A DNA stretch of 64,000 bases from Sphingopyxis macrogoltabida. GTDB taxonomy: Bacteria; Pseudomonadota; Alphaproteobacteria; Sphingomonadales; Sphingomonadaceae. The notes under the pieces are model-generated. The model worked only from the letters and a program-made list of their open reading frames with translations. It was not told where the DNA came from and did no database searches. Positions 35,847 through 63,852 of this stretch are shown here, one piece after another (position 1 is the first letter of the stretch; every line of letters starts with the position of its first letter). The DNA lies in contig NZ_CP012700.1 of assembly GCF_001307295.1 (NCBI RefSeq), positions 3,227,001-3,291,000 of the forward strand, read 5' to 3'. Both the position numbers and the translations under genes were made by a program.

Positions 35847-38159
35847 ATGAGGAACTACCGCTTTTTCAACATGGCGAGCGCCTGCGCGATCGCAGCGGCG
35901 GCGGCCATGCCGGCATCGGCGGCGCCCGGCGACCAGCCGAAGATCGGCAAGACCTTCGCCGATTCGGCGCCCGGCAAAATCGCTCGGACCGTTGCCCCCG
36001 CAGGCTCCCCCAATGTCCTCGTCTGGGTGATCGACGACATGGGCTTCGGCCAGCTCGGCAGCTATGGCGGCCTCGTCGAAACCCCCAACATCGACCGCGT
36101 CGCGCAGCGGGGCCTGCGCTACACCAATTACCATACGACCCCCATCTGCTCCGCCAGCCGCGCCGCGCTGCTCACCGGGCGCAATTCGCACCGCGTCCAT
36201 ATCGGCGGCCATTCGGCGATCGCGGTCGGCTTTCCCGGGCAGGACGCGCTCGTCCCGCGGAGCGCGGGCACCGTCGCCGAGAATCTGCGCCAGTCGGGCT
36301 ATCTCACCTATGCGATCGGCAAATGGGACCATCTGCCGCAAACCGATGCCTCGGCTGCGGGGCCCTTCACCTATTGGCCGAGCGGCCAAGGGTTCGACCG
36401 CTATTATGGCTTCCTCGCCTTCGACGCCGACAACTTCGACCCGAAGCTTTGGTCGGACCATGATCCGGTCACGCTGTCGCCGCGCCCCGACTATCATCTC
36501 AGCGCCGACATGGCCAACAAGGCGATCGGCTGGATCGGTGCGCGCGACGCCACCGATCCGAAGCGGCCATTCATGATGTATTGGGCGACCGGCGCGGTTC
36601 ATGCCCCGCACCACGCGCCGCAGCGCTGGCTCGACCATTATAAGGGCCGCTTCGACGCGGGCTGGGACGTCGCGGCGCAACAGGTGCTCGATCGCCAGAA
36701 GAAACTCGGCCTCGTCCCGTCCGACATGGCGCTCCCGCCGCTGCCCGCCGGGGTAAAACATTGGGCCGAGCTCAGCCGCGACGAGCAGCGCATGTTCGCG
36801 CGTCAGATGGAGGCCTTCGCGGCGCAACTCAGCCACGCCGACGAACAGTTCGGCCGCATCCTCGATGCGATCGAAGCGCGGGGCGAACTCGACAACACGG
36901 TCGTCGTGATCACCGCCGATAATGGCGCCAGTGCCGAGGGCGCACCGCAGGGCACCTTCAGCGAACATTATTTCGCCAACGCCTATTTCGCGACGCTCGC
37001 TGAAAATCTGCGCCACTATGACGATTGGGGCGGCCCCTCGACCTATCCGCACTACGCCAATGGCTGGGCGGTCGCGGGCAACACGCCGTTCCGCTATTAC
37101 AAGCAGACGGCCTATGAGGGCGGCACCCGCGTCCCGCTGATCCTGTCGTGGCCCGGCGGCATCGCGGCGCGCGGCGAGCTGCGCGGTCAGTATCAGCATG
37201 TCACCGACATCACTCCGACGATCCTCGACGCCGCCGGCATCGCCCCCGCGGCGATGGTCAACGGCCAGCGGCAGATGGCGTTCGACGGCGTCAGCATGAA
37301 ATACAGCTTCGCCGCCCCCGCCGCGCCGACGCGCCATGCGACGCAATATTACGAGATGTACGGCAACCGGTCGATCTATGCGAACGGCTGGAAAGCCGTC
37401 GTGCCGCACCGGCTCGACGTGTGGGATTTCATGAACCGGCCGACATTTAGCGACGACAAGTGGGAACTCTATAACGTCGCGGCCGATCCCGGCGAACAGC
37501 GCAACGTCGCCGCCGCAAACCCGCGCAAGCTTGCCGAAATGAAGGCATTGTTCGATCGCGAGGCAAAGGCGAACAACGTCTATCCGCTGACCAACACCAG
37601 CGACGCATGGGGCTATGTCCGCAAGATCATGGCGGCGGATATGGCGCGCCGCGGCTATCTGTGGACCTACACCGGCGCCACTGCGCGCATCCCCGAAGCG
37701 CTCGCCCCGCCTGTCCCGTCGACGAGCTTCACGATCGAGGCAGCGCTCGATCTCGATGCCGACGCCAATGGCACCATCGCCGCGATCGGTGGCCGTCACG
37801 GCGGCTTCGCACTCCATATGCGCAAGGGCCGTCCGGTCTTCACCTATCGCAGCCTCGACATGAAGCTGAGCGAGGTCGCCGCCGACCGCGTGCTTCGCCG
37901 CGGTGCCGCCAATGTGCTGCTCCGCTTCGAACGACGCGGCGAAAGCGAGGCGCTTGTCCACATCCTCGCCGACGGCGCCGAAGTCGCGAGCGGCACGATC
38001 AAAGGCGCCCTGCCCCGCCTGTCCTTCTCGCCGAGCGAAACCTTCGACCTCGGACAGGACAGCGGATCGGGCCCGCTTGCCGATGGCAAGACCGCGGGCG
38101 TGCTCGATGGCCGCATCCGTACCGTCAATATCCGGATCACCCCGCCAAGGGCGCAGTGA
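35847..38159 (+). CDS. Type I arylsulfatase, exported
   Basis: A 770-residue sulfatase of the alkaline-phosphatase superfamily. Seen: a signal peptide (MRNYRFF to PASAAPG), the metal-binding WVIDDMGFGQLGSYGG, and the catalytic CSASR with Cys101, which becomes formylglycine (type I pattern C-x-A/P-x-R), followed by AALLTGR. ITADNGAS supplies further metal ligands. Beyond about residue 590 an extra beta-rich C-terminal domain follows, so the protein is longer than short sulfatases (500-550). It removes sulfate from aryl or alkyl sulfate esters, probably in the periplasm. It is followed by molybdopterin oxidoreductase 3, 17 bases downstream, and an MFS gene. The maturase for formylglycine is not in the window. 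Confidence 0.94.
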   Translation: MRNYRFFNMASACAIAAAAAMPASAAPGDQPKIGKTFADSAPGKIARTVAPAGSPNVLVWVIDDMGFGQLGSYGGLVETPNIDRVAQRGLRYTNYHTTPICSASRAALLTGRNSHRVHIGGHSAIAVGFPGQDALVPRSAGTVAENLRQSGYLTYAIGKWDHLPQTDASAAGPFTYWPSGQGFDRYYGFLAFDADNFDPKLWSDHDPVTLSPRPDYHLSADMANKAIGWIGARDATDPKRPFMMYWATGAVHAPHHAPQRWLDHYKGRFDAGWDVAAQQVLDRQKKLGLVPSDMALPPLPAGVKHWAELSRDEQRMFARQMEAFAAQLSHADEQFGRILDAIEARGELDNTVVVITADNGASAEGAPQGTFSEHYFANAYFATLAENLRHYDDWGGPSTYPHYANGWAVAGNTPFRYYKQTAYEGGTRVPLILSWPGGIAARGELRGQYQHVTDITPTILDAAGIAPAAMVNGQRQMAFDGVSMKYSFAAPAAPTRHATQYYEMYGNRSIYANGWKAVVPHRLDVWDFMNRPTFSDDKWELYNVAADPGEQRNVAAANPRKLAEMKALFDREAKANNVYPLTNTSDAWGYVRKIMAADMARRGYLWTYTGATARIPEALAPPVPSTSFTIEAALDLDADANGTIAAIGGRHGGFALHMRKGRPVFTYRSLDMKLSEVAADRVLRRGAANVLLRFERRGESEALVHILADGAEVASGTIKGALPRLSFSPSETFDLGQDSGSGPLADGKTAGVLDGRIRTVNIRITPPRAQ

Positions 38160-38176
38160 CAGAAGGAGGAAGTCGC

Positions 38177-40285
38177 ATGGCCTTCACCACCATCCCCGGC
38201 GCCGATGGCGACCACATCACGTACTGCCGTGTCTGCGAGGCGCTGTGCGGCATGATCGCGACGGTCGCGGACGGCAAGATCGTCAAGGTCCGCCCCGACC
38301 GCGACAATCCCCATTCGCGCGGCCACATCTGCGTCAAGGGCCCGGCGCTCGCCGAGGTTACCTATGATCCCGACCGCGTCACCACGCCGCTGAAGCGCGT
38401 CGGCGGCCCCGGCGAGTTTGCGCCGGTCGGCTGGGACGAAGCGCTGAACGATATCGCCGCGCGCCTGTCGGCCTCGATCGACGCGCATGGCAGCCAGAGC
38501 TTTGCGATGAACACCGGCAACCCGCCGAGCATGGGCTGGCCCAGCTCAATGGGCAATTACCTCTTCAGCCGCGCCATGGACTGCACCAAGCTGTTCACGC
38601 CGTCCTCGGAGGATATCACATCGGTCGTGCTCGCGACCGAGTTGATCTTCGGCACCCACGGCTTCGTCTTCCCCGACCTCGCACAATGCGATCACCTGCT
38701 GATCTTCGGGTCGAACCCGCTGGTCAGCCATGGCTCCTTGCTCATCGCACCGCGCTTCAAGGAGGATCTGGTCGAGATCGCCGAGCGCGGCCGCGTCATC
38801 GTCGTCGATCCGCGGCGCAGCGAGACGGCGCGCAAGTTCGAACATGTCTCGATTATCCCCGCCGGCGACGTCTGGCTGCTCGGCGCCATGGTGCGGACCG
38901 TGCTTGTCGAAGGGCTGGCCGACATGGACTTTGTCGAACGCCATTGCACCGGTTTTGCCGAGCTGGCGGCGGCAATCGACTGGATCACCCCCGAACTGGC
39001 GGCGCCGCGCTGCGGCATCGAGGCCGACGAAATCCGGACCCTCGCGCGCGATTTCGTCGCCGCGCCGCGTGCCGCCGCGATGGGCCGCATCGGCATCTGC
39101 CGCGCCAGCTACTCGACGCTGACCAACTATTTCCTGCACCTGCTCAACGTCCTCGGCGGCAAGTTCCACAAGCCGGGCGGCGTCGGTTGGGGGCACGGCG
39201 GCACCGCGACCGAGGCGCAATCGACCGGGCCGGGGCACGCGCGCCACAAACGTCACAGTTCGCGCGTCAGCGGCCAGGCCTCGGTCTGGGGCACCCAGTC
39301 GAGCCTGACCTTCCTCGAAGAAATGACGACGCCCGGCGAGGGGCAGATCAGGACGCTGCTCACCGTCGGCGCCAATCCGGTGCTGTCGATGCCCGGCGGC
39401 CCGCGCCTGCCCAAAGGTTTCGCAGGGCTCGACCTGATGGTGTCGGTCGATCTCTACATGACCGAAACCTCGCGCCACGCACACTACATCCTTCCCGCTA
39501 CCACCGCGCTCGAACGTGAGGATATCAACCAGTTCTTCATGAACCACATGGTCCGCCCCTTCGCGCAATATGTCCCCGCGGTGGTCCCGCCGACCGGGCA
39601 GGCGCGCGGCGAATATGAAATTTTGCGCGACCTCGCCGCGCGGATGGACCGCGACGGCGCCTTCGGCAACATGACGCCGTTCGAGATGGCCGACGGCGCG
39701 CTGCAAGCGGGAATCGAGGGCCAGGACGGACTGTCGCTTGCCAAGCTGAAAGCCAACCCGCACGGTGTGATGATCGAACGCGGCCGCTGGGCCTTCGACT
39801 TCGAAAAGCGCATCGGCCACCCCGACGGCAAGATCCACTTGTGGGACGATATCGCGGGCGACGAGGTCGCGCGGCTCCGCGCCGAACCCGATCCCGACCC
39901 CAATATGCTCCGCCTGATCAACCTGCGCAAATTGCGCTCGATCAACAGCTGGATGCATAATGTCGACAAGCTCGTCCGCTCGGACTCGCCCGCGCTGCTG
40001 ATCAACCCGGCGGACGCCGCCGCGCGCGGCATCGACGACGGGATGGCGGTGAAGATTTCGACGCAGTGGGGCACGATCGAGGTCGTGGCCGAGGTAACCG
40101 ACGAGGTCCGCCCGGGCTGCGTCGCCTATCCGCACGGCTGGGGTCATCGCGGCGGCTGGCAGGGGGCCAATGCCCAACCGGGGCGCAACCTCAACGAGAT
40201 TACCCCGGCTACCCCCGATCAGGCCGAGCAGGTGTCGGGCATGAGCTGGCTCGAAGGCTTTGCGGTCGAGATTTGCGCGGCATGA
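38177..40285 (+). CDS. Molybdopterin-dependent oxidoreductase (3), DMSO-reductase superfamily, stand-alone
   Basis: A 702-residue enzyme of the same family as those at 9834 and 17232, but more divergent. The iron-sulfur ligands are Cys17, Cys20, Cys24 (YCRVCEALC) and Cys52 (HICVKG). Shared blocks are FGSNPLVSHGS, VDPRRSETARKF, MGRIGICRASYSTLTN and YPHGWGHRGGW. The stretch before the first pterin block reads SSEDITSVVLATELIFG, so the Cys/Sec ligand of formate dehydrogenases is again not seen. The start at 38177 is preceded by a strong AGAAGGAGGAAG site; in-frame codons upstream overlap the sulfatase gene. The stop overlaps the start of the MFS gene (ATGA). Co-transcription with a sulfatase and a transporter suggests work on the desulfated product. 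Confidence 0.9.
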   Translation: MAFTTIPGADGDHITYCRVCEALCGMIATVADGKIVKVRPDRDNPHSRGHICVKGPALAEVTYDPDRVTTPLKRVGGPGEFAPVGWDEALNDIAARLSASIDAHGSQSFAMNTGNPPSMGWPSSMGNYLFSRAMDCTKLFTPSSEDITSVVLATELIFGTHGFVFPDLAQCDHLLIFGSNPLVSHGSLLIAPRFKEDLVEIAERGRVIVVDPRRSETARKFEHVSIIPAGDVWLLGAMVRTVLVEGLADMDFVERHCTGFAELAAAIDWITPELAAPRCGIEADEIRTLARDFVAAPRAAAMGRIGICRASYSTLTNYFLHLLNVLGGKFHKPGGVGWGHGGTATEAQSTGPGHARHKRHSSRVSGQASVWGTQSSLTFLEEMTTPGEGQIRTLLTVGANPVLSMPGGPRLPKGFAGLDLMVSVDLYMTETSRHAHYILPATTALEREDINQFFMNHMVRPFAQYVPAVVPPTGQARGEYEILRDLAARMDRDGAFGNMTPFEMADGALQAGIEGQDGLSLAKLKANPHGVMIERGRWAFDFEKRIGHPDGKIHLWDDIAGDEVARLRAEPDPDPNMLRLINLRKLRSINSWMHNVDKLVRSDSPALLINPADAAARGIDDGMAVKISTQWGTIEVVAEVTDEVRPGCVAYPHGWGHRGGWQGANAQPGRNLNEITPATPDQAEQVSGMSWLEGFAVEICAA

Positions 40286-51759: not shown

Positions 51760-54150
51760 TCACGAACCGAATTTGAAGCCGATCGTGACGCCCCCGGTGA
51801 TCCCGCGGCCGAGCGCCGTCGAATAGCCGAATGTCGTCGTCTGCATGTTGCGGAATACGCGGTCGCCCTGGTTGAGGAGGTCGCGGCCCCAGACGGTGAC
51901 GTAGAAATTATCCTTCAGCGGCCGGAAGGTCGCCGAGAGGTTGAGCGTCGTCAGCGCTTTCTGGACCGGCGCCCTGCCCTCTCCCGCCGGATAGGGGTTG
52001 CCGCCGGCATCGACCCCCGCGGGATAGAAACCGTGCGTCGCATGGTCGAACTTGTCGGTATAGCTGAGCAGCCCCGCCAGTTCGAGCTCGCCCGCGGCGC
52101 CCAGCGGCAGCTTGTAGTTCGCTGACACGCTGGCCATGATATTCGGCGTGACGGGCAGATCCTCGCCCGAACAATCGGCGTTGGTCGCCAGCGCCAGGCC
52201 GACCCCCGCAGGGCGATAGATTTCGCAATTCGGGAAGCTGTCATATTCCGATTTGAAATAGGTCGAGAAGCTGGTGTTCAGCGTCAGCCGGTCATCGGGC
52301 CGGAACGACATTTCAGCTTCCAGCCCCGAAATCGTCGCCTTCGCCGCGTTGATCGAAATCTGCGTGTTGGTCGCCGGGTCGACGACCGGCACCTGCAGAT
52401 TGTCATATTTATAATAATAGCCCGCGAGATTGAGGGTCAGCTTGCGGTCGAACAATTGCGACTTCAGTCCGACCTCGAAAGCATCGATCGTCTCGGGCTC
52501 GGTCGCGCGCGCCGACAGCGAGGAGATATTGTAGACCCCGCTCTTGAAGCCGCGGTTGTAGCTCGCATAAACGAGGAAATCGTCCGAGAATTTATGGTCG
52601 AGCACGAGGCGATAGGTCAGTTCCGAGAAGCCGGTGCTCAGCCCGTCGCACAGCGGATCGGCAGTGCAGACGTCGCCGATCGTCTGCGGGATCGCGATGA
52701 CCCCGCCGGTGCCGTCGGGGACATAGGTGACCTTGCCATTATCCTCGTCGAGCGTCGCGGTCTCGTCGGTGTAACGCAGTCCGGCGGTGATCTTCGTCCC
52801 CTGCCCGAACTCATAGGACGCCTCGCCGAACAGGCCGACCGATTCGATTCTCACGAAAGTGCTGAGGTCGATATAGGCGAGCCCCGACGTCGGCCCGAGG
52901 CCGAGCGCCGACAGTTCGAGCAGCCGCTGCGGGATGGCATGCGGCTGGAGTTTGGTCGGGACCGGCAGGCCGACATATTGGTCGAGTTGCGTATAGCCGT
53001 CGCGATAATTGATATAGAAACCGCCGAGCAGCCACTGGAAGGGCGAGCTGCCTTTCGACGACACAAGCAATTCCTGTTGCCAGGTGCGGCCCTTGAGGTC
53101 GGTGTCGAACCAGAAGACCGGGGCGGGCGACAGGTCGAGGTCGAGCTGAACCCCCGAACCGCTGCGCGTATAGGCGCTGGTCGAGCTGATCGCGACGTCG
53201 CCGAGATCATAGTCGAGGTGGAGCGACATGCCCCAGCTATCGTAACGCACCTCGGGCGGCACCTCACCATAATAGGCGCGCTTCGGATTGCGGATATCGA
53301 CCCCCGATACCGCCTCGCCGACCGAGAGGGACGATCCCGGCGCGGGCTGCATCGCCATGATCGGGGTGGTATAGCCATTGATGTAATTGCCCTGTAGCTG
53401 TGCCGAGAAATCGCCGCTTTCAAAGAGCAAATTGGCCCGGAAACCATAGGTTTCCTCCTCGCCAGTACCCTTGCCGATGCCGTTCGACGGGTTGCGGTTG
53501 GTGATATAGGGCGTCTCGTAGCGATAGAAGCCGCTGACGCTGAACGCCAGATTTTCGCCGAGCCCGGTGGTGATATAGGCGCGCGCGCCGCGATCATCGG
53601 TGCCGAAGGTCCCTTCGACCATGCCGCCGAAGTCCTGGCTCGGCTTTTTCGTCGAGATCAGGATCGCGCCCGAGGTCGCGTTGCGCCCGAACAAAGTCCC
53701 CTGCGGCCCGCGCAGCACCTGGATCGATTCGACCTCGGGAAAGGTCTGAAGCAATATCCCCGTCTTGTCGGTCTGATAGACGCCGTCGATATAGACCGCC
53801 GCGCTGGACTCATTGCCCGGGGTGATGTTGCGGCTGCCGACACCGCGGATATAGGGCACCGACTGGCTGCCGCCCTCGGGCACCACCAGCGAGGGCGCCA
53901 TCTGCGACAATTGGCGCAGGCCATCGATCCCGGTCGACTGAAGCTGCTCGCCCTGGAACGCCGAGACCGCGATCGGCACGTCTTGCAGCGCTTCTTCGCG
54001 CCGCTGCGCGGTGACGACGATAACGCCGTCGCCGCCGTCATTCTCCTCGGCGGCGGGCGCCGCCGCGTCGGTCTGCGCCGCGGCGGGCACCGCGGCCATC
54101 GCGATCAGCATCGCGGTCGAACCATATAAGATTTTGTGTGAAACAATCAT
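51760..54150 (-). CDS. TonB-dependent outer-membrane receptor (3)
   Basis: A 796-residue TonB-dependent receptor. Seen: a signal peptide ending about PAAAQ, a TonB-box-like VIVVTAQRREEALQDVPIAV, the plug blocks YIRGVGSRNITPG and VLRGPQGTLFGRNATSGAI, and a barrel ending GGVTIGFKFGS. Long stretches match receptor 1 (27617) closely, so both probably import related compounds. The start MIVSHKI at 54150 has AGAGAGAAG before it; a more upstream ATG lies inside that ribosome site and is rejected. It follows the DUF1214 gene on the same strand after 70 bases and seems to be the last gene of the cysD to sulfotransferase operon, although the gap could hold its own promoter. Confidence 0.95.
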   Translation of the reverse strand: MIVSHKILYGSTAMLIAMAAVPAAAQTDAAAPAAEENDGGDGVIVVTAQRREEALQDVPIAVSAFQGEQLQSTGIDGLRQLSQMAPSLVVPEGGSQSVPYIRGVGSRNITPGNESSAAVYIDGVYQTDKTGILLQTFPEVESIQVLRGPQGTLFGRNATSGAILISTKKPSQDFGGMVEGTFGTDDRGARAYITTGLGENLAFSVSGFYRYETPYITNRNPSNGIGKGTGEEETYGFRANLLFESGDFSAQLQGNYINGYTTPIMAMQPAPGSSLSVGEAVSGVDIRNPKRAYYGEVPPEVRYDSWGMSLHLDYDLGDVAISSTSAYTRSGSGVQLDLDLSPAPVFWFDTDLKGRTWQQELLVSSKGSSPFQWLLGGFYINYRDGYTQLDQYVGLPVPTKLQPHAIPQRLLELSALGLGPTSGLAYIDLSTFVRIESVGLFGEASYEFGQGTKITAGLRYTDETATLDEDNGKVTYVPDGTGGVIAIPQTIGDVCTADPLCDGLSTGFSELTYRLVLDHKFSDDFLVYASYNRGFKSGVYNISSLSARATEPETIDAFEVGLKSQLFDRKLTLNLAGYYYKYDNLQVPVVDPATNTQISINAAKATISGLEAEMSFRPDDRLTLNTSFSTYFKSEYDSFPNCEIYRPAGVGLALATNADCSGEDLPVTPNIMASVSANYKLPLGAAGELELAGLLSYTDKFDHATHGFYPAGVDAGGNPYPAGEGRAPVQKALTTLNLSATFRPLKDNFYVTVWGRDLLNQGDRVFRNMQTTTFGYSTALGRGITGGVTIGFKFGS

Positions 54151-54220
54151 CTTCTCTCTCCCCATATCTGTCTGTTATAAATCGACATTCTACGGTCCGG
54201 ACGCTGTGCCCGGCGGTCCT

Positions 54221-55405
54221 TCAAAAATAGCGGCGGTCGGCGGCGAGGCGGCGGAGGCGCGCGGTCGCAAGACGCTCCTCGGGCGTGACACGCGGTTCGT
54301 CGGCGGGAAATTCGTCCTTCACCGCGGCGAGCGGCACGAGCTTGGTCAGCGGCTTCTTCGGCGGCACGCCCGAGGCGAGTTGCTGGAAGCGCATGAAGAT
54401 GAAGCCCGATTCCACGCCCGTCGTGTCGAGCCAGTTCCACACCCCCGGATCCTCGCCCGCGAGCACATAGCGAAAGCGCCCATCGCTCGACACGCGCGAC
54501 TGGGCACCGGTGATGCTCGACTGCACCGAACGCGGGATGAAGCTGTTGAACCAGCGCGGATGCGCGAGCGCGAGGCTCTGATATTTGGCGTCGCAGGGAT
54601 CGATCGTGATGACCAGCGCTTGTCCCGCAGGGACTTCCCAGCGGCCCTTGGTGTTGAACTGCCCCGGGAAATAGCCGGCATCGGCCGGGCCGACGGTCGG
54701 CGCGGGATAATCGTTGAGCGGCAGTACCTTGGTCCAGTTGCGGGCGAAATCGTCGAGGAATTTCACCTGGTCGACCATGTTGCGCGCGGCGACGGCATAG
54801 AGTTGCTGCACATCGGCGAGTGTGGGGCGGCGAGATACCGGCACCGGCTGGTCCATGCGCTCGATCAGCATCGGGGTCGGCTGTTCGGTCAGCCAGTCGT
54901 TCACCGTCTGGCGCACGAACAGGCAGCGCGCGCGATCGTCGCTCTTCATCCAGTTGCCGGGGCGTTCGGGGCCGCCGATCCACAGCTCGAAACGCCCGTC
55001 GGCCTCGATCTCGAGCCGGCTCGATTCGAGCGCGCCGATGCGGTCGCCGACCACGCCGTCGTCGCCCGCGAGGCCCGACACCAGCTCGAAGCAATAGTCG
55101 ACGGTGTTGCCGCGATGCCCCAGCACGCGATAGACGCCGCCGCCGTCGATCTGGGCGCTGTAATAATGATGATCGGGGGTCGGCAGCCCCCAGGTGCGGA
55201 CATTGTCCATGTCGCGCACGAAAGCAGGGCGGTCGAGATCGTAACTTTTGAACGCGCGCTCGACGTGGAAAATCCACATGCCGGCGAGATACTGATACCC
55301 CTCCGCCAGATCGGCGTTGGTGGTGCCGGGATGGGCGCGAATGATCGCTTCGACCTCGCGGGCCGCATCGATGAACTGGGCATAGCCGCTTGCAATATCA
55401 GACAT
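54221..55405 (-). CDS. DUF1214 domain protein of unknown function
   Basis: A 394-residue protein with a DUF1214-like region (RFELWIGGPERPGNWMKSDD, RARCLFVRQTVNDW) near residues 135-165, preceded by HHYYSAQIDGGGVYRVLGHR. The C-terminal half has WEVPAGQALVITIDPCDAKY and FIFMRFQQLASG. No catalytic motif, signal peptide or membrane helix is evident. The start MSDIASGY overlaps the end of the sulfotransferase gene by 8 bases, so translation is coupled. DUF1214 proteins have no established activity that I know of. Its place after the sulfotransferase and before a TonB receptor suggests that it binds or handles the sulfated compound or its precursor. This is inference from position only. Confidence 0.8.
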   Translation of the reverse strand: MSDIASGYAQFIDAAREVEAIIRAHPGTTNADLAEGYQYLAGMWIFHVERAFKSYDLDRPAFVRDMDNVRTWGLPTPDHHYYSAQIDGGGVYRVLGHRGNTVDYCFELVSGLAGDDGVVGDRIGALESSRLEIEADGRFELWIGGPERPGNWMKSDDRARCLFVRQTVNDWLTEQPTPMLIERMDQPVPVSRRPTLADVQQLYAVAARNMVDQVKFLDDFARNWTKVLPLNDYPAPTVGPADAGYFPGQFNTKGRWEVPAGQALVITIDPCDAKYQSLALAHPRWFNSFIPRSVQSSITGAQSRVSSDGRFRYVLAGEDPGVWNWLDTTGVESGFIFMRFQQLASGVPPKKPLTKLVPLAAVKDEFPADEPRVTPEERLATARLRRLAADRRYF

Positions 55406-56576
55406 GTAGCTGGGTCTCCGTGCTCGGGTTGGCGTCGAGGAAGCCGAAGGCATCGTCGACCATCGCCTCGGTCAGTTCGTACCGTTCGAGCGAATATTGG
55501 TTTATGCCGTGCTTGCCGGCGGGATTGTCGGCGATCCACGTCCGGATCGCGGTCTCGCCCGTATCGGACAAGGCGAGGCCGGCCTGTTCGTAGAAGCTGC
55601 GGATATGTCGGATCGGGTCGGCGAGCATATCGCGATAATCGACCTCGATCATCTTGAGCCGGTTGCCCAGCCGGGCGCGCGCCTGCTGGAAGCGGTGCAT
55701 TTCGGGCACCCAATATTCGAGCGCGATGCGCCCGATCGCGGCGGGCTGGCGCGTCAGATACGGCTGCTGCGCGGCCTCGAGCGCGTTGCAGAAGGAGGCG
55801 ACGACGGTGCGAAAATCGCGGCGCGGATAGACGAAGGTCGCGCCGGGGTGAAAGGCCAGCATCTCCTCGAGATGGCCGACATGAACCGGGCTTTTCAGAA
55901 TCCATTTGCGGCCGCGGCGCCCGCCGTCCTGCCATTGCAGATAGCGCAGCAGGTCGGCGACATAGGCATAGCTCGGACGGCGCGGCAGGGTGCGCAGATA
56001 TTCGAGATAATCGGCGTCGGGCACGCCGGTGTAGATATGGCCGACATGCTGGAAGCTCAGATGGTGGAGGTTCCAGTCCTCGTCGGCATCGTCGGCGACC
56101 GCGGGGTGCGCGGCGTGGAGTGCGGGATTGCCGATGCGGATCGCATCGGCGACAGCTTCGGCGAAAACCAGTCGCCCGCCGGGTTCGTGCGGCGCCTCGC
56201 CCGGGAAGGGAGCAGGGTTGAGCAGGCGCCAGAATTTGAGCGACTGCATCGCGGGGTCGGCCGACATCATGCGCTGCAGCACGGTGGTGCCGCTGCGCGG
56301 GAAACCAATGACGACGATCGGGTCGGCAACATTCTCGTCGAGGATCTCGGGGTGGCGCGCGAGATCGTCGGCGAAGCGCAGCCGGTTGACGAGGAGGCGC
56401 TGTGCCATCGCGTCGAGCTGCGCGAAGCCGGCTTCGTCCGGGGTGCCCCGGCGCGCGAAATGATAGAAGGCATCGAGCGCGGCGACGAACTCCTCGGGCT
56501 CGCGGCGGTCGATACCGCTTGTTGCACGCGCTTCCGCCAACGCGCGCGCGCCGTCCGCCGTATCAAAACCGGTCAT
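55398..56576 (-). CDS. PAPS-dependent sulfotransferase
   Basis: A 392-residue sulfotransferase that transfers a sulfuryl group from PAPS to a hydroxyl or amine. Seen: the 5'-phosphosulfate loop VVIGFPRSGTTVLQRMM with GFPRSGTT at residues 91-98. The 3'-phosphate-binding element is WILKSPVHVGHLEEML then FVYPRRDFRTVVASFCN (R-R-D and the later Ser). It is of the bacterial Sulfotransfer_3-like type, cytosolic. The start ATG overlaps the stop of the cysQ-like gene (ATGA); upstream in-frame codons belong to that gene's antisense. The genes before it (cysD, cysNC, cysQ) make PAPS and remove PAP, so it has a dedicated cofactor supply. The acceptor is unknown; an alcohol or phenol intermediate of the cluster is likely. 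Confidence 0.93.
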   Translation of the reverse strand: MTGFDTADGARALAEARATSGIDRREPEEFVAALDAFYHFARRGTPDEAGFAQLDAMAQRLLVNRLRFADDLARHPEILDENVADPIVVIGFPRSGTTVLQRMMSADPAMQSLKFWRLLNPAPFPGEAPHEPGGRLVFAEAVADAIRIGNPALHAAHPAVADDADEDWNLHHLSFQHVGHIYTGVPDADYLEYLRTLPRRPSYAYVADLLRYLQWQDGGRRGRKWILKSPVHVGHLEEMLAFHPGATFVYPRRDFRTVVASFCNALEAAQQPYLTRQPAAIGRIALEYWVPEMHRFQQARARLGNRLKMIEVDYRDMLADPIRHIRSFYEQAGLALSDTGETAIRTWIADNPAGKHGINQYSLERYELTEAMVDDAFGFLDANPSTETQLHV

Positions 56577-57334
56577 TCGTCTCTCCCCTTGGTGTCTGGA
56601 TTGCGGCACGCCGCGATGAGGCTGTCCGCCATCTCCTTGCGGCAGATCAGCAGGTCGGGCATCGCGACGTCTTGCTGGTTGTAGACGAGCGGCGCACCGT
56701 CGATGCGCGAGGCGTGGAGGCCGTGCGCGAGCGCCACCGCCGCGGGCGCGGCACTGTCCCACTCATATTGACCGCCGGTGTGGAGATAGATATCGGCCTC
56801 GCCGCGCACCACCGCCATCGCCTTGGCCCCCGCCGAGCCCATCGGCACGAGTTCGGCACCGAAGCTTTCGGCAACGGCCAGCGCTTCGGCAGCAGGGCGC
56901 GTGCGGCTGACCAGCATTTTCGGCGGCGTATTAGCGGGCTGGAGCGCGACGGGAGCCCCTGACGTCAGCGTTACATCGAGGCCGGGCAAGGCGACCGCAC
57001 CGATGACCGGTTCGCCGTCGATCGCGAGTGCGACATGGACGGCCCAATCGCTGCGGCCCTCGCCATATTCACGGGTGCCATCGAGCGGGTCGACGATCCA
57101 GACGCGGCTTTTGGTAAGGCGATCAGGGGTGTCCTTGCTCTCCTCCGACAGGATGCCATCATCGGGGCGCTGTTCGCGGAGCGCATGGATCAGGAACTGG
57201 TTCGCGACCTGATCGCCGGCCCTGCCGAGCGCCTTGCCGGCGAAGAGGCCGGACTCCCGCACGGTGAGCAGGATGCGCCCCGCGGTCTCGGCGAGATGCG
57301 CGGCCAGCGCGGCGTCGTCGAGCGCGGCGCTCAT
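56573..57334 (-). CDS. cysQ: 3'(2'),5'-bisphosphate nucleotidase (CysQ-like, inositol monophosphatase fold)
   Basis: A 253-residue phosphatase of the inositol-monophosphatase fold. CysQ hydrolyses PAP, the by-product of PAPS use, to AMP and phosphate. Seen: the metal site SEESKD, then [20 protein letters not shown] (D-P-L-D-G-T), and the late [16 protein letters not shown] motif (W-D-x-x-A). The start overlaps the end of cysNC by ATGA, and its stop overlaps the sulfotransferase start. The assignment to CysQ rather than inositol monophosphatase rests on the TREYGEGR stretch and on the operon position between cysNC and a sulfotransferase, which produces PAP at each turnover. Confidence 0.9.
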
Positions 57335-59259
57335 CCCAGCAGCCTGTCGACGATGATGTCGGCGGCCTCATCGGGTGTCATGTTGGTTGTATCGATGCGG
57401 ATTTCGGGGTTTTCGGGTGCCTCATAGGGGCTGTCGATGCCGGTGAAGTTCTTGAGCTGTCCGGCGCGGGCCTTTTTGTAGAGGCCCTTGACGTCGCGGT
57501 GTTCGGCTTCGGCGAGCGGGGTGTCGACGAAGATTTCGATGAACTCGCCCTCGGGCAGCATCGCGCGGACCATCTCGCGCTCGGCCTTGAACGGCGAGAT
57601 GAAGGCGGTGATGACGATCAGCCCTGCGTCGGTCATCAGCTTCGCGACCTCGCCGACGCGGCGGATATTCTCGATCCGGTCGGCCTCGGTGAAGCCGAGA
57701 TCGCGGTTCAGCCCGTGGCGGACATTGTCGCCGTCGAGCAGGAAGCTGTGCCGGTTCATCCGGTGCAGCTTCTTCTCGACGAGGTTGGCGATCGTCGACT
57801 TGCCCGAGCCCGAGAGGCCGGTGAACCATAGTAGCGCGGGACGCTGGTTCTTGAGGCCCGCGCGCATGTCGCGGTCGATGTCGGTCGCCTGCCAGTGGAC
57901 ATTCTGCGCGCGGCGCAGGCTGAAGTGCAGCATGCCCGCCGCGACCGTCGCATTGGTCAGCTTGTCGATCAGGATGAACCCGCCCAACACCTTGTTTGGG
58001 CTTGTGCGATTGTCGCCATAGGCCTCGAAGGTGATCGGCTTGTCGGTCGACAGCTCGACAACCCCGATGCCGTTGAGGTCGAGCGTCTTCGCCGCGAGAT
58101 GGTCGAGCGTGTTGACGTTGATCTCGTACTTCGGTGCCTGCACCGTCGCCGACACGCTCTGCGTCGCCAGCTTCAGCCAATAGGCGCGCCCCGGGATCAT
58201 CGCCTCGTCGGCCATCCACACCAAAGTCGCCTCGAACTGGTCGGCCGCCTCGGGCGGATTGTCGGCCGCCGCGATGACGTCGCCGCGCGAGCAGTCGACC
58301 TCGTCGGCCAGCGTCAGCGTCACCGACTGGCCCGCGACGGCCTCGTCGAGGTCGCCATCGAGGGTGACAATGCGGGCAACCGCCGTCGTCTTGCCGCTCG
58401 GCAGAATACGCACCGCGTCGCCCGGCCTGACCTTGCCGCTCGCAAGCTGGCCCGAGAAGCCGCGGAAGTCGAGGTTGGGCCGGTTGACCCACTGCACCGC
58501 CATGCGGAAGGGCTTCGCCTCGTCGGCGGCGCTGCCGACCTCGACGCCTTCCAGATGCTCGATCAGCGCCGGGCCCTTGTACCAGGGCATGTTGTCCGAC
58601 AGCGCGGTGATATTGTCGCCCTTGAACCCCGAGATCGGGATGGCGGTGAAGTTCGTGATGCCGATCTCGCTCGCAAAGGCGCGGTAGCTGAGCAGGATGC
58701 GCTCGAACACCGTCTTGTCGTAATCGACAAGGTCCATCTTGTTCACCGCGAGCACGATATGCTTGATGCCGATCAGATGCGCGAGGAAGCTGTGGCGCCG
58801 CGTCTGGGTGAGCACGCCCTTGCGCGCATCGATCAGGATGACGGCGAGGTCGGCGGTCGAGGCGCCGGTGACCATGTTGCGCGTGTACTGTTCGTGCCCC
58901 GGGGTGTCGGCGACGATGAACTTGCGCTTTTCCGTCGTGAAAAAGCGATAGGCGACGTCGATCGTGATCCCCTGCTCGCGCTCGGCGGCGAGGCCGTCGA
59001 CGAGCAGCGCGAAGTCGATCTCCTGCCCCTGCGTGCCGACGCGCTTCGAGTCCGCCTCCAAGGCCGCCAGCTGGTCCTCGAAGATCATCTTCGAGTCATA
59101 GAGCAGGCGCCCGATCAGCGTCGATTTGCCGTCGTCGACCGAGCCGCAGGTGATGAAGCGCAGCAGCGACTTTTGCTGATGCTGTTCGAGATAGGCGTCG
59201 ATATCCTCGGCGATCAGCGCGTCGGTGACATAGACGGGGGTGTCGGAGGGAGCCGGCAT
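57331..59259 (-). CDS. cysNC: Bifunctional sulfate adenylyltransferase large subunit / adenylylsulfate kinase (CysN-CysC)
   Basis: A 642-residue fusion. The N-terminal part is the CysN GTPase of ATP sulfurylase: GSVDDGKST (residues 39-47), [11 protein letters not shown] and NKMD, then the elongation-factor-like beta domains. The C-terminal part is APS kinase Cys[16 protein letters not shown] (P-loop, near residue 468), [15 protein letters not shown] and AFISPF. Together with CysD it turns sulfate and ATP into APS and then PAPS. The start overlaps the cysD stop by one base (TGATG), and the stop overlaps cysQ by ATGA. In most proteobacteria this fusion serves cysteine synthesis; here the next genes consume PAPS for sulfonation. 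Confidence 0.96.
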
Positions 59260-60173
59260 CAGAAGTACCCCTCCTGCTTCTTCTTCTCCATGCTGGCGTC
59301 GCCGCCGTCCTTGTCGATGATGCGGCCCTGCCGCTCGCTGGTGGTGGTGAGGAGCATTTCCTGGATGACTTCGCTGAGCGTCGTCGCTTCGCTTTCGACC
59401 GCGCCGGTCAGCGGATAACAGCCGAGCGTGCGGAAGCGCACCGAGCGCTGAACCGGCACCTCGCCTTCTTTCAGCGGGAAGCGATCGTCGTCGACCATCA
59501 GCAACAGGCCGTCACGCTCCACCGTCGGGCGCGGGGCGGCGAAGTAGAGCGGTACGATCGGGATATTCTCGCGCGCGATATATTGCCAGATGTCGAGCTC
59601 GGTCCAGTTCGAGATCGGGAACACCCGGATACTCTCCCCCTTCGCCTTCCGGGCGTTGTAGAGGTTCCACAGTTCGGGCCGCTGCTTCTTCGGATCCCAG
59701 CCGTGGCTTGCGGTGCGGAAGGAGAAGATGCGTTCTTTCGCGCGGCTCTTTTCCTCGTCGCGCCGCGCGCCGCCGAAAGCGACGTCGAAGCCATGGAGGT
59801 CGAGCGCCTGCTTCAGCCCCTCGGTCTTCCACATGTCGGTGTGCAGCGGGCCATGGTCGAACGGGTTGATCCCCCGCGCCTTCGCCTCGGGGTTCTGGTA
59901 GACAATGAGCTCCATGCCGCTCTCCGCCGCCATGCGGTCGCGCAGCGCGTACATCGCCTGGAACTTCCACGTCGTGTCGACGTGCAGTAGCGGAAACGGC
60001 GGCGGCGAAGGATAAAAGGCCTTGCGCGCCAGATGCAGCATCACCGCACTGTCCTTGCCAACACTGTAAAGCATCACGGGCTTGGCCGCATCCGCCAGCA
60101 CCTCGCGCATAATGTGAATGCTCTCCGCCTCAAGACGGTCGAGATGGTTGTGCATTTTCGGGGCCGCAGGCAT
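59259..60173 (-). CDS. cysD: Sulfate adenylyltransferase small subunit (ATP sulfurylase)
   Basis: The catalytic small subunit of ATP sulfurylase, which adenylylates sulfate to APS together with the CysN GTPase. Seen: [20 protein letters not shown], the PP-loop [23 protein letters not shown], and [32 protein letters not shown] follows, and the C-terminus has [16 protein letters not shown]. Three in-frame ATG codons are possible (60203, 60173, 60155), none with a good ribosome site; 60173 gives 304 residues, close to the 302 of the E. coli protein. It is the first gene of the operon cysD, cysNC, cysQ, sulfotransferase, DUF1214, TonB receptor. A motif 1 site and a direct repeat lie upstream. Confidence 0.95.
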
Positions 60174-60241
60174 GCGTGGGGAATGGAAGTTCGCCGGTCT
60201 CATAGCCGGTTCTTAGGCAGGCTCCGCGTTCGGCTCTTGAC

Positions 60242-60270
60242 GAATCCTGCTATTTTGTAGAATCCTGCTA
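60242..60270. promoter_or_regulatory. GAATCCTGCTA direct repeat, probable AraC-family site
   Basis: GAATCCTGCTA at 60242-60252 is repeated exactly at 60260-60270, an 18-base period. Direct repeats about two helical turns apart are the usual target of AraC-type activators. An AraC gene starts 96 bases to the right, and cysD starts 69 bases to the left on the opposite strand. Activation of the cysD operon by that AraC protein is inferred. Confidence 0.6.
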
Positions 60271-60287: not shown

Positions 60288-60365
60288 ATATCTTCGCGCT
60301 GAAGGAATGGCGCGATGGCTGGATCGGGGACCGCGCGGTAAAGCGCGGCCTCACGGGAGGTGAGG

Positions 60366-61238
60366 ATGCTGGGAAGCTTCTTTAAAAGCGATCGCGCCAT
60401 TTATGCGCGGCACCAGTCGGATCTGGTCGTCGAACGCTGTTCGGCGCAGAAGGGCTGGCGCGGGCTGCATCTCGAGGTGGGTCACAATCGCGGCTGCGAC
60501 GTCCGCTCGCTGATGCTGCAGGGTCATCTGATCGGTATGCAAATCACCGGCCAGCCGATCGCAGTCGAAATCCATGAAAATGGCCGGTGGGTTCCGACCG
60601 CGCTGCCCTCGCATCAACTGTTCATCCACCCGGCGGGAACGCCGCTCAATATCCGGCACGATCTGTGGACCCGCTGGGCATTTGCGATCATCGACCATCC
60701 GGCGCTGGCGACAAGGCGGGGGCCCGATGACACCTTGGGCTGGTCGGATCACGACCAGATGCTGACCTTGTTGTTCCAGGCGCTGATCGAACAGCTCTGC
60801 TACGAGCGGCGCGACACCAGCGGCGACCGGGCGCTCGCCCAGTCGCTGATCGACAGCTTCATCCTCGCGCTGCACCAGCGCGCGCCGGCTTCATCCACCG
60901 CTTCGGCGCGCGGCGGCATCGCGCCCTATATGGTCGCCGACCTGCGCGCCTGGATCGAGCGCAATCTGGAGCAGAAGATCGGGGTGCAGGACATGGCCGA
61001 CCGGCTCGGCTATTCCTGCGCCCACTTCGCGCGCGAGTTCAAGCGCGAGGTCGGCCTCACCCCGCATGGCTTCCTGCACGACATCCGCCTGTCGACGGCG
61101 ATGGACCTCGCGCGCCGCGGCACGCCGCTGGTCGACATCGCCCACCGGTGCGGCTTTGCCGATCAGGCCCATCTTTCGAACGCTTTCAAGAGCCGCTTCG
61201 GCTTTTCACCTGCGAGTCTTCGCCAGCGCAGCAACTAG
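60366..61238 (+). CDS. AraC-family transcriptional regulator
   Basis: A 290-residue AraC-type regulator. The two C-terminal helix-turn-helix motifs are at about residues 200-285: LEQKIGVQDMADRLGYSCAH followed by FAREFKREVGLTPHGFLHDI, and then LVDIAHRCGFADQAHLSNAF with FKSRFGFSPASLRQ. The N-terminal domain is of the short, ligand-binding type without a clear cupin signature. The start ATG at 60366 follows GGAGGTGAGG, a strong ribosome site; a GTG six bases earlier is less likely. It is divergent from the cysD operon with an exact direct repeat in between. Control of that operon is inferred, and the signal is unknown. Confidence 0.93.
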   Translation: MLGSFFKSDRAIYARHQSDLVVERCSAQKGWRGLHLEVGHNRGCDVRSLMLQGHLIGMQITGQPIAVEIHENGRWVPTALPSHQLFIHPAGTPLNIRHDLWTRWAFAIIDHPALATRRGPDDTLGWSDHDQMLTLLFQALIEQLCYERRDTSGDRALAQSLIDSFILALHQRAPASSTASARGGIAPYMVADLRAWIERNLEQKIGVQDMADRLGYSCAHFAREFKREVGLTPHGFLHDIRLSTAMDLARRGTPLVDIAHRCGFADQAHLSNAFKSRFGFSPASLRQRSN

Positions 61239-61250
61239 CCGCCGGCCAGC

Positions 61251-62189
61251 TCAGGGGATGGTCGCCAGGGTCGCAACCTTGTCTAGAACCTTGCGCCCGA
61301 ACAGGCTGGCGGTGAGGTCGGTGAGCAGGCGGGCGCTCTTGCCGCGCTCATCGAGATAGGGGTTGAGTTCGGCGAGATCCATCGACGTGGTCAGCCCGGA
61401 TTCGCAGAGCATCTCCATGACCAGATGCGCCTCGCGAAGACTGGCGCCGCCGCTCACCGTCGTGCCGACGCCGGGCGCGATGGCGGGGTCGAGGAAGTCG
61501 ACGTCAAGGCTGACGTGCAGCATGGCGCCGATTTTCCCGACCTGTGCCAGGATACGGCGGACGATCGCCGCAATGCCGAATTCGTCGATCGCCCGCATGT
61601 CGAAGACCTGCACGCCGCGCTCCGCGATCAACTGGCGCTCGCGGTCGTCGACCGACCGGATACCGAGCATGAAGACATTGGCGGGATCGACGGTGGCGCG
61701 ATCGTCGCCGAGAATGCCGTCGAAGCCCGGTTCGCCGCAATAATAGGCGACGGGCATCCCGTGCATATTGCCCGACTCCGACGTCATCGGCGTATTGAAG
61801 TCGGCGTGCGCGTCGAGCCAGATCACGCACAGCGGGCGCCCGACGTCGCGCGCATGGCGCGCCGCGCCCGAAACGGTACCCATGGCAAGCGCATGATCGC
61901 CGCCCATGAAGATCGGCAGGCGTCCCTCGCGCAAGGTCCGGTACGCGACCTCCCCGAGCGAGCGCGTCCACCCGGCGATATTGGGCGCGTGGCGCGCATT
62001 GCCGCCGAAGCCGACCCCGGACACCGCCGCCGCCATGGCGTCGCCATCGTCGACCACTTCGTGCCCGAGCGCCGCGAGCGCCGGCGCCAGTCCCGAAATC
62101 CGCATTGCCCCCGGCCCCATCGCGCAGCCGGGAAGTCCCGCGCCCAATTCGACCGGAGCCCCGATCAGGCTGATCCTTCGCCGTTCCAT
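61251..62189 (-). CDS. rocF: Arginase
   Basis: Arginase of 312 residues, a manganese enzyme that splits arginine to ornithine and urea. Seen: the metal-ligand motifs GGDHALAMGT, WLDAHADFNTP and SLDVDFLDPAIAPG. The substrate loop SGNMHGMPVAYY is characteristic of arginases rather than agmatinases. The C-terminal MDLAELNPYLDERGKSARL segment is also typical. It lies 36 bases downstream of the ornithine cyclodeaminase gene on the same strand, forming a two-gene operon for arginine to proline via ornithine. It is convergent with the AraC gene. It has no evident link to the catabolic cluster. Confidence 0.95.
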   Translation of the reverse strand: MERRRISLIGAPVELGAGLPGCAMGPGAMRISGLAPALAALGHEVVDDGDAMAAAVSGVGFGGNARHAPNIAGWTRSLGEVAYRTLREGRLPIFMGGDHALAMGTVSGAARHARDVGRPLCVIWLDAHADFNTPMTSESGNMHGMPVAYYCGEPGFDGILGDDRATVDPANVFMLGIRSVDDRERQLIAERGVQVFDMRAIDEFGIAAIVRRILAQVGKIGAMLHVSLDVDFLDPAIAPGVGTTVSGGASLREAHLVMEMLCESGLTTSMDLAELNPYLDERGKSARLLTDLTASLFGRKVLDKVATLATIP

Positions 62190-62225
62190 TCTCTCGTCCC
62201 CGTTCCTGATAAATTGTCGAGCGCG

Positions 62226-63272
62226 CTAGGCGGCGCGCTGGAGCATGCCGAACAGGTCGCGCGGATCGTCGGGGTCGGCGAGGATGTCGATCTGCTGGAA
62301 AAAATCGGTGCCCTGCAATTTCGAGTAGATGTAGCGGAGCGCCGAGAAATCCTCGGTAGCAAAGCCGACGCTGTCGAAAAGCGTGATTTGCCGGGCGTCG
62401 CGCCGGCCCTCGGCATCGCCGCTCAGGACCTGCCAGAATTCGGTCACCGGATAGCTCGCATCCATGTGCTGGATCTCGCCCTCGATCCGCGTTTGCGGTT
62501 CGAATTCGACGAAGGTGACGGCGCGCGACAAGATGTCCTTGTGCAATTCGGTCTTGCCCGGGCAATCGCCGCCGATCGCATTGATGTGGACGCCCGATCC
62601 AACCATATTGTCCGTCAGGATCGTCGCATAGGCCTTGTCGGCGGTGCAGGTAGTGATGATCTGCGCGCCTTCGATCGCGTCCTGCGCGCTGGTGCAGGAT
62701 ACGACCCGCAGGCCGCTATCGCCCAGATTGCGGTTGGCCTTGGCGGTGGCGCTCGCATCGATGTCGTAAAGCCGGACCTCCTCGATCCCGACGACTGCCT
62801 TCATCGCCAGTGCCTGAAACTCGGCCTGCGCGCCATTGCCGATCATCGCCATGACCTTTGCGTTACCCGGCGCGAGGTGGCGCGCCACCATCGCCGAGGT
62901 TGCGGCGGTGCGCAGCGCCGTCAGCAAGGTCATTTCGGTCAGCATGAGCGGATAGCCGGTGTCGACGCGTGCGAGCAGCCCGAAGGCGGCGACGGTCTGA
63001 AACCCCTTGGCGGTGTTGCTCGGATGGCCGTTCACATATTTGAAGCTGAAAGCTTCGCCGTCGGAAGTCGGCATCAGTTCGATCACGCCGTCGCGCGAAT
63101 GCGAGGCGAGGCGGGGAATTTTCTCGAAAAGATCCCACCGCCGATAGTCGGCCTCGATCGCGTCGGTGAGTTCGACGAGGATTTTTTCGATGCCGAAATG
63201 ATGGACGAAGCGCATCATGTTTTCGACGCTGACGAACGGGATATAAGCAAGCGGCGAAGGCGCGGTGGGCAT
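62226..63272 (-). CDS. Ornithine cyclodeaminase
   Basis: A 348-residue member of the ornithine cyclodeaminase/mu-crystallin family, which turns ornithine into proline and ammonia with NAD+. Seen: LMLTEMTLLTALRTAATSAM near residue 110, VMAMIGNGAQAEFQALAM (Rossmann G-x-G-x-x-x) near residue 135, and the VHINAIGGDCPGKTELH segment. The neighbour downstream is arginase, which makes ornithine, so the assignment to ornithine cyclodeaminase is well supported. It is divergent from an Lrp-type regulator, with an inverted repeat between them. Confidence 0.93.
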   Translation of the reverse strand: MPTAPSPLAYIPFVSVENMMRFVHHFGIEKILVELTDAIEADYRRWDLFEKIPRLASHSRDGVIELMPTSDGEAFSFKYVNGHPSNTAKGFQTVAAFGLLARVDTGYPLMLTEMTLLTALRTAATSAMVARHLAPGNAKVMAMIGNGAQAEFQALAMKAVVGIEEVRLYDIDASATAKANRNLGDSGLRVVSCTSAQDAIEGAQIITTCTADKAYATILTDNMVGSGVHINAIGGDCPGKTELHKDILSRAVTFVEFEPQTRIEGEIQHMDASYPVTEFWQVLSGDAEGRRDARQITLFDSVGFATEDFSALRYIYSKLQGTDFFQQIDILADPDDPRDLFGMLQRAA

Positions 63273-63348
63273 GGCACATCCTTTGAAATCGAGAACTTGC
63301 CCAGCCTAAAGCGGCATCCTGCCTGTCTAAATCGTCATCTCTACTTGA

Positions 63349-63372
63349 AAATTTATCGGATCTGGTAAATTT
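63349..63372. promoter_or_regulatory. Inverted repeat in Lrp / ornithine cyclodeaminase promoter
   Basis: AAATTTA (63349-63355), 10 bases, TAAATTT (63366-63372): a perfect 7-bp inverted repeat in the AT-rich divergent region, like many Lrp/AsnC targets. Control of the cyclodeaminase/arginase operon and of the regulator itself is inferred. Confidence 0.55.
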
Positions 63373-63414
63373 GAATAGCTCCACCATACAATTTGCCAAA
63401 ATCCGGGAATCCTG

Positions 63415-63852
63415 ATGGCCATCGCAAAATTCATCCCCGACGATCTCGACCGCCGCATCATCGCGCATCTGCGCGTCGATGGCCGTGCTTCGCTATCGAA
63501 ACTGGCCGGGGCGCTCGGGGTCGCCCGGGCGACCGTGCAGAACCGGTTGGACCGCTTGCTCGACACCGGAGCGTTGCTGGGCTTCACGGTGCGCGTGCGC
63601 GAGGATTATGACGATCTCGACATTCGCGCGGTCATGCTGATCGAGGTCAGCGGGCGATCGACCACCCAGGTCATCCAGAAACTGCGCGGCATTTCCGAAA
63701 TCCGAACGCTGCACACGACGAACGGCAATTGGGATCTCATCGCCGATATCAACGCGGGAAGCCTTTCGGACTTCGACCGCGTGTTGCGCGAGGTGCGCAT
63801 GATCGACGGCGTCGAGAACAGCGAAACCAGCCTGTTTCTCAGCACGATATAG
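63415..63852 (+). CDS. Lrp/AsnC-family transcriptional regulator
   Basis: A 145-residue Lrp/AsnC regulator. The N-terminal winged HTH is at residues 8-55 (LDRRIIAHLRVDGRASLSKL, AGALGVARATVQNRLDRL). The C-terminal RAM ligand-binding domain follows (VMLIEVSGRSTTQVIQKLRG, TTNGNWDLIADINAGSLSDF). It is divergent from the ornithine cyclodeaminase/arginase operon, which suggests that it senses arginine or ornithine, or a related amino acid, and controls that operon. The promoter has a perfect 7-bp inverted repeat. Confidence 0.95.
   Translation: MAIAKFIPDDLDRRIIAHLRVDGRASLSKLAGALGVARATVQNRLDRLLDTGALLGFTVRVREDYDDLDIRAVMLIEVSGRSTTQVIQKLRGISEIRTLHTTNGNWDLIADINAGSLSDFDRVLREVRMIDGVENSETSLFLSTI

Follow-up and report, generated by a model that had tools for sequence, protein, structure and literature searches.

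The window analysed here is a 64,000-nucleotide stretch (C1:3227001-3291000) of the 5.1-Mb genome of Sphingopyxis macrogoltabida, hereafter called G000. Read directly from the sequence, six abutting genes on its minus strand encode CysD, CysNC, a CysQ-like phosphatase, a sulfotransferase (ST), a DUF1214-like protein and a TonB-dependent receptor, and an AraC-family regulator gene lies divergently in front of cysD (Table 1). The operon is probably an inducible unit with its own donor supply, dedicated to sulfonating a hydroxylated intermediate of catabolism, in which the DUF1214-like protein is the functional partner of the ST. The core of this proposal, that 3'-phosphoadenosine 5'-phosphosulfate (PAPS) is made here for sulfonation and not for cysteine, had been put forward in a sequence-only reading of the same DNA. 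It is supported by a second cysDNCQ operon and separate cysH, sulfite/nitrite-reductase-type and cysG-type genes in the genome, by the operon's own AraC gene with a conserved repeat, by the distribution of extra cysNC copies, and by two clusters outside the genus (L095 and L108) which join cysD-cysNC to ST and DUF1214 genes.

Organisation of the operon and its products

The gene order, overlaps and gaps described in the sequence-only reading were all confirmed. The cysD/cysNC junction is TGATG (59261-59257), and those of cysNC/cysQ (57334-57331) and cysQ/ST (56576-56573) are both ATGA. The ST stop codon (ending at 55398) and the DUF1214 ATG (starting at 55405) overlap by 8 bases, and 70 bases separate the DUF1214 stop codon (ending at 54221) from the receptor ATG at 54150, which is preceded by a purine-rich stretch; the longest open reading frame (ORF) of the receptor begins at 54165. 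For cysD two starts are possible, 60203 in the longest ORF and 60173.

Table 1 Features of the operon and the linked sulfatase gene (window positions)
Feature	Position	Strand	Basis
AraC-family regulator	60360..61238	+	PF12833/PF00165
Tandem operator-like repeat, candidate AraC site	60244..60269	-	AGCAGGAT N10 AGCAGGAT, 18-base spacing
cysD, sulfate adenylyltransferase small subunit	59259..60203	-	NF009214, 528.9 bits
cysNC, sulfate adenylyltransferase large subunit + APS kinase fusion	57331..59259	-	NF004035, 1071.4 bits
cysQ-like PAP phosphatase	56573..57334	-	PF00459, 122.8 bits; TIGR01331, 115.9 bits, below cut-off
3,369-bp block identical to second cysDNCQ operon (L012), taken as a recent gene-conversion tract	56772..60140	-	edges from alignment
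PAPS-type sulfotransferase, Sulfotransfer_3	55398..56576	-	PF13469, 118.8 bits; relative of PDB 2zq5, 2z6v
DUF1214-like protein, conserved ST partner	54221..55405	-	homologues, ST pairing; PDB 6ans profile match
TonB-dependent receptor, start 54165 or 54150	51760..54165	-	PF00593/PF07715
Arylsulfatase-family enzyme, linked by co-occurrence	35847..38159	+	PF00884, 201 bits; CSASR motif, signal-like N-terminus; 1hdh

CysD and CysNC score above the curated cut-offs of NF009214 and NF004035, which places both in sulfate activation and upholds two labels of the sequence-only reading. Its label for the third protein, a member of the inositol-phosphatase family, is likely and not certain: the best NCBIfam model is that of CysQ (TIGR01331), with a score below the cut-off, and the product is likely to be CysQ. 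The ST scores above the cut-off of PF13469 and has the motifs of PAPS-dependent sulfotransferases of the Sulfotransfer_3/Stf1-like type, in which a 5'-phosphosulfate loop and a 3'-phosphate motif serve the cofactor; the GFPRSGTT region is conserved, and R253 and S261 are invariant in 29 sequences. Its profile matches PDB 2zq5 (E 1.2e-61), presumably Stf1. A search of plasmid records for the ST returned 36 relatives, every one below 60 % identity.

The label DUF1214 holds indirectly. The window protein gave not one Pfam match even at E ≤ 10, the PF06742 model included. This domain is present in 20 of 57 database homologues (27-57 % identity), and the relative from L108 scores 28.6 bits against a cut-off of 25, so that the window protein can be assigned to DUF1214 by homology only. 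Its profile matches PDB 6ans (E 1.7e-103). Eight residues (P60, Y92, G137, R165, D319, P320, W325 and R339) are invariant in 39 sequences and could form an anion-holding site. The protein appears soluble; signal-like starts were seen by eye in the homologues P0132 and P0135. In seven Sphingopyxis genomes (G384, G324, G417, G478, G480, G467 and G476) the alignments of distant DUF1214 relatives run through in-frame TGA stop codons, one or two in each.

Pairing of ST and DUF1214 genes

Among 53 loci around ST relatives, a DUF1214 gene is found within three genes in 24 and a short-chain dehydrogenase/reductase (SDR) gene in 18; this set omits the window, L218 and loci in which the ST was missed by the ORF caller (e.g. 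L095), and some of its loci are closely related. In 15 whole genomes picked for holding ST relatives (85 ST genes), no more than 3 kb separates 45 of the 56 DUF1214 genes from an ST gene, 39 of these 45 being on the same strand, against 0.8 expected from even placement; two of these genomes (G494 and G503) have ST and no DUF1214. The Hydrocarboniphaga genome alone carries 10 DUF1214 and 18 ST genes. In three mycobacteria and a Salinispora, DUF1214 and ST genes flank an SDR gene. SDR domains are combined with a sulfotransferase domain (P0091 and P0108) or with DUF1214-like sequence (P0158) in database proteins of 656-661 residues, a further sign of a three-enzyme module.

Of 59 loci compared outside Sphingopyxis, two have cysD-cysNC joined to ST-DUF1214, one in Sphingomonas sp. 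35-24ZXX (L095) and the other in Pseudomonas nicosulfuronedens (L108). The nearest ST outside the genus in the genome collection is 60 % identical and comes from Hydrocarboniphaga.

Distribution in Sphingopyxis

Orthologous ST and DUF1214 genes are present in 6 of 80 Sphingopyxis genomes, the products in the other five being 87-98 % (ST) and 84-98 % (DUF1214) identical to those of the window; the dN/dS ratios of 0.07-0.21 for both genes in the six genomes indicate apparent purifying selection. Genomes referred to below include the drafts G399 (GW247-27LB), G419 (HIX) and G415 (MAG-119), whose ST is 88-90 % identical to that of the window, and strain OPL5 (G463), all Sphingopyxis. Any ST relative is found in 27 of the 80 genomes, and all 23 DUF1214-positive genomes fall within these 27.

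Copies of cysNC were counted in 44 genomes of the genus (36 and 8 more), among them 22 of the 27 ST-positive ones. All 6 operon genomes have an extra cysNC, compared with 2 of 38 others (Fisher 4e-6, uncorrected for kinship), and the two exceptions (G422 and G489) also carry ST and DUF1214. In the drafts the extra copy was counted from contig-end fragments (a full gene plus two fragments for G399, a full gene plus one fragment for G419, and for G415 a pair of fragments alone); a second match of 20 bits in G405 was left out of the count, and three of the 44, the incomplete genomes G404, G409 and G418, gave no good cysNC match. In OPL5 a diverged third cysDNCQ lies at a distance of 3-7 kb from a different DUF1214 gene.

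A second cysDNCQ operon and gene conversion

G000 contains two adenosine 5'-phosphosulfate (APS) kinase genes and two cysD genes, the second cysD-cysNC-cysQ operon (L012) being called here the housekeeping copy. A genome with no other cysDNC, together with cysteine auxotrophy on deletion, had been named in the sequence-only reading as a sign of a housekeeping role for the operon; G000 does have another cysDNC. The genes for CysH, a sulfite/nitrite-reductase-type haemoprotein and a CysG-type methyltransferase are grouped near C1:1.45 Mb, about 1.8 Mb from the operon, and none of cysH, cysI or cysG was found among the window proteins scanned, in agreement with what had been said of their linkage. 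With a second cysDNCQ and the reductive genes elsewhere, the cell does not have to rely on the island copy to assimilate sulfate.

L012 and window positions 60147-56624 are 98.8 % identical, with an exactly identical block whose sharp edges fall within the cysD start and the cysQ tail (Table 1). In the three genomes with both copies fully assembled, the island and housekeeping cysNC are 100, 98.6 and 98.6 % identical, compared with 86.6-94.6 % between genomes (six comparisons), and the tree clusters the copies by genome. The cysD-cysNC junction also matches within a genome, as an overlap in both copies of G000 and as a gap of approximately 120 bp in the two copies of G423 and likewise of G463. 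The tail of cysQ behaves differently: its last 75 codon columns cluster by locus, and all six island copies share a clade (support 0.986). Because in three genomes each copy is closer to its partner than to its orthologues while the cysQ tail clusters by locus, the cysDNCQ operons appear to be a clear case of recurrent gene conversion between an accessory and a housekeeping copy. Over the first 150 cysQ columns, the island type also takes in the housekeeping copies of G000 and G423, a sign that conversion there ran from island to housekeeping.

A simple recent duplication of cysDNCQ was rejected, since cysQ tails and cysD starts have diverged beyond the identical block and the cysQ tails of six genomes cluster by locus. 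For G000, collapse during assembly was rejected as the only explanation, short of full exclusion, as both flanks differ and as G423 and G463, in which both copies lie on one contig, show 98.6 % within-genome identity. In the drafts G399, G419 and G415 the contig carrying the island ST breaks off within cysNC, the pattern of a collapsed repeat, so that these assemblies do not show the cysD and ST sides of the operon joined. In HIX the AraC-cysD side and a housekeeping-type cysQ are on one contig (L152, G419:C39) and the island cysQ-ST on another (L153, G419:C37), an arrangement due either to assembly crossing in the repeat or to real recombination. The cysD of GW247-27LB (L144, G399:C12, 5767-6818) aligns in two pieces with residues 135-183 repeated, an apparent internal duplication in a contig that ends in the repeat.

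AraC regulator and operator-like repeat

The AraC protein encoded next to cysD has relatives of 98, 89 and 92 % identity in G423, G419 and G463, where their genes likewise adjoin cysD. The gap between the two genes contains a conserved block in the four readable genomes (G000, G423, G463 and G419), in which AGCAGGATTC is repeated at 18 bases; the repeat is intact in G423 and G419, and in G463 one base of the second half-site is changed. At up to 3 mismatches the window has 2 matches, compared with 0.43 expected. Neither the repeat nor the AraC gene is found upstream of the housekeeping cysD in G000 and G423.

In Hydrocarboniphaga a 42 % identical AraC is encoded beside SDR, ST and DUF1214 genes at a locus without cys genes (L054), and AGCAGGATAC and AGCAGGATTA, 19 bases apart, lie between the AraC gene and the others. 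At a further locus, L059, a related repeat pair is found by another 42 % AraC. As Hydrocarboniphaga has AraC, SDR, ST, DUF1214 and a similar repeat with no cys genes nearby, an older ST-DUF1214 unit under the control of AraC probably gained cysDNCQ in the Sphingopyxis lineage, by insertion between its promoter and the ST gene.

Catabolic island and sulfatase

The island around the operon encodes two cytochromes P450, three Rieske oxygenases, acyl-coenzyme A (acyl-CoA) ligases and dehydrogenases, a thiolase-like protein, TonB receptors and a major facilitator superfamily (MFS) protein. Its gene order is kept in G423 and G415, and in the fetched parts of G419 and G463; G415 and G419 gave no match to one aldehyde dehydrogenase gene. 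The second P450 gene (12148-13389, plus strand) is followed by two adjacent acyl-CoA dehydrogenase genes (13450-15650, plus strand), and this dehydrogenase pair is reminiscent of steroid degraders. Three molybdopterin oxidoreductases are encoded at 9837-11969, at 17232-19343 and within 37607-40282, and may belong to the same pathway; three relatives, the best 52 % identical, surround an ST-DUF1214 unit in Hydrocarboniphaga (L239, on the same contig as L054). Genes for an arginase, an ornithine cyclodeaminase and an Lrp/AsnC-type regulator (61254-63852) adjoin the AraC gene and perhaps mark the island edge; the first two are kept in G423. Naming the growth substrate from protein families failed, as a scan of the oxygenase, P450, CoA-enzyme, molybdopterin, GMC, sulfatase and tannase proteins gave zero NCBIfam equivalogs above cut-off.

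The island also encodes an enzyme of the formylglycine sulfatase family (PF00884), which, like the partly identical second cysDNCQ copy, had no place in the sequence-only reading. Such enzymes have the active-site motif C-x-[PA]-x-R, seen here as CSASR; the protein has a hydrophobic N-terminus ending in ASAA, as judged by eye, and matches 1hdh (E 1.2e-67). Relatives of 82-97 % identity are present in all five other operon genomes, in G399 on a separate contig, and the nearest in seven other genomes compared is 57 % identical (G489). In G457, G463 and G489 there are relatives of 39-42 % identity at 6-13 kb from an ST-DUF1214 pair; other relatives (39-57 %) in G457 and G489 are away from any ST, that of G397 (40 %) is 113 kb from its pairs, and Hydrocarboniphaga gave no match at E ≤ 1e-40.

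Discussion

Judged by their families, CysD and CysNC would make PAPS and the CysQ-like phosphatase would remove 3'-phosphoadenosine 5'-phosphate (PAP). The AraC protein may sense a lipophilic substrate or intermediate, and the ST would sulfonate a hydroxyl on an intermediate of the oxygenase/acyl-CoA pathway, a lipophilic hydroxylated acceptor being suggested because the operon is surrounded by genes for P450s, Rieske oxygenases, acyl-CoA enzymes, a thiolase-like protein and TonB receptors. The DUF1214 protein would then act on the sulfate ester, the apparently exported sulfatase would reclaim ester that escapes from the cell or reaches it already sulfated, and the PAPS genes would stay near-identical to the housekeeping copy through gene conversion. 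Sulfonation costs several ATP equivalents, so its wiring into a breakdown pathway calls for a reason. We tentatively favour, with less than even confidence, the view that DUF1214 uses sulfate as a leaving group in an elimination or displacement, with net loss of a hydroxyl that is hard to remove; the many paralogous ST-DUF1214 pairs per genome suggest a general chemistry, and hydroxyl activation is for this reason preferred over detoxification. In the sorghum LGS1 route, as outlined in PMC8713700, sulfonation likewise activates a hydroxyl by turning it into a better leaving group; that route is a biosynthetic one of a plant, and DUF1214 is no part of it as described there.

Several observations weigh against the proposal. 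Near most ST-DUF1214 pairs of the 59 loci outside Sphingopyxis there are no cys genes, and cysNC is single in 14 of the 22 ST-positive Sphingopyxis genomes examined, 10 of which also have DUF1214, so that the ordinary PAPS pool is apparently enough in most cases. In G399 cysQ, ST, DUF1214 and receptor genes are present and island genes of >50 % identity are absent from the 54 kb beside them; the tie of the operon to the pathway of this island is thus not obligatory. A relaxed repeat pattern gave 2 matches genome-wide and its reversed control also 2, being no rarer than the control, and the case for an operator is therefore one of conservation, not of rarity. The TIGR01331 score of the CysQ-like protein is below the 228.8 bits of the cut-off. 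The evidence bearing on the elimination step is confined to gene pairing and invariant residues, and we know of no activity for the DUF1214 family.

A less likely explanation is conjugation for retention or detoxification, in which sulfate would solubilise a lipophilic or toxic intermediate and the ester would be held or exported, to be recovered later by way of the sulfatase and the TonB receptor. The close sulfatase relatives in every operon genome and the more distant ones near pairs in G457, G463 and G489 fit this explanation, as does the addition of cysDNCQ to a sulfotransferase in Escherichia coli, for which PMC6731281 gives a higher sulfate-ester yield, stating also that sulfation reduces the toxicity of phenolics. 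That system, built for zosteric acid, has the same functional parts (PAPS synthesis, PAP removal and a sulfotransferase, SULT1A1) but, according to the same account, is artificial, with a phenol substrate and a rat enzyme. Conjugation, however, leaves DUF1214, which pairs with ST in Gram-positive genomes too, without a role. The sulfatase is missing from Hydrocarboniphaga at the threshold used and stands away from the ST in G397 and for some relatives in G457 and G489, and the operon has no dedicated exporter, though an MFS gene is present in the island.

Biosynthesis of a sulfated surface or secreted compound (a lipid, siderophore or signal) taken up by the linked receptor, outside catabolism, appears improbable. 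The receptor gene does belong to the operon, and in G399 ST, DUF1214 and receptor stand without the island. In rhizobia a second CysD/CysNC-type pair, NodP-NodQ, supplies PAPS to one sulfotransferase, NodH, in Nod-factor biosynthesis, a dedicated set for a signal which resembles the operon in this respect and differs in that it is not known to include a DUF1214 protein, an AraC operator or a catabolic island. Against biosynthesis, families of nonribosomal peptide synthetases, polyketide synthases and glycosyltransferases are absent among the window proteins scanned (part of the ORFs), and four of the other operon genomes retain the oxygenase/acyl-CoA island order as far as fetched. That a spare housekeeping cysDNC merely lies before an unrelated sulfotransferase gene is very improbable, for although gene conversion keeps the copies interchangeable, so that the island copy could also feed cysteine synthesis, and most ST-positive genomes manage without an extra cysDNC, extras occur among the 44 genomes only where ST and DUF1214 do, the housekeeping copy lacks AraC and repeat, start/stop overlaps run down to DUF1214, and L095 and L108 repeat the association.

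New to us are the partnership of ST and DUF1214, a version of it under AraC control with its own PAPS supply, its link to a catabolic island that also encodes a sulfatase, and the repeated gene conversion. Among the open-licence PubMed Central papers searched, none combines the terms DUF1214 and sulfotransferase, and none combines sulfotransferase, sulfatase and Sphingopyxis. The mycobacterial unit Rv3529c-Rv3531c is not known to include PAPS genes. Tables of cholesterol-catabolism genes in PMC6429209 include Rv3529c, Rv3530c and Rv3531c, the first of which is named Stf1 in PMC8882603; with Rv3531c as a putative DUF1214 protein, the gene numbers in PMC6429209 imply the DUF1214-SDR-ST order seen in the three other mycobacteria and Salinispora, whose ST is only 28-31 % identical to that of the window. 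More speculatively, and with considerable doubt, ST, SDR and DUF1214 might form a widespread, unrecognised module which removes or rearranges hydroxyls via sulfonation in sterol, terpenoid or aromatic catabolism; DUF1214 would then be a new family of sulfate-ester enzymes, and the Sphingopyxis version would be self-sufficient in PAPS. The conserved pairing makes DUF1214 the subject of a testable enzyme hypothesis, which may extend to mycobacterial sterol-gene regions.

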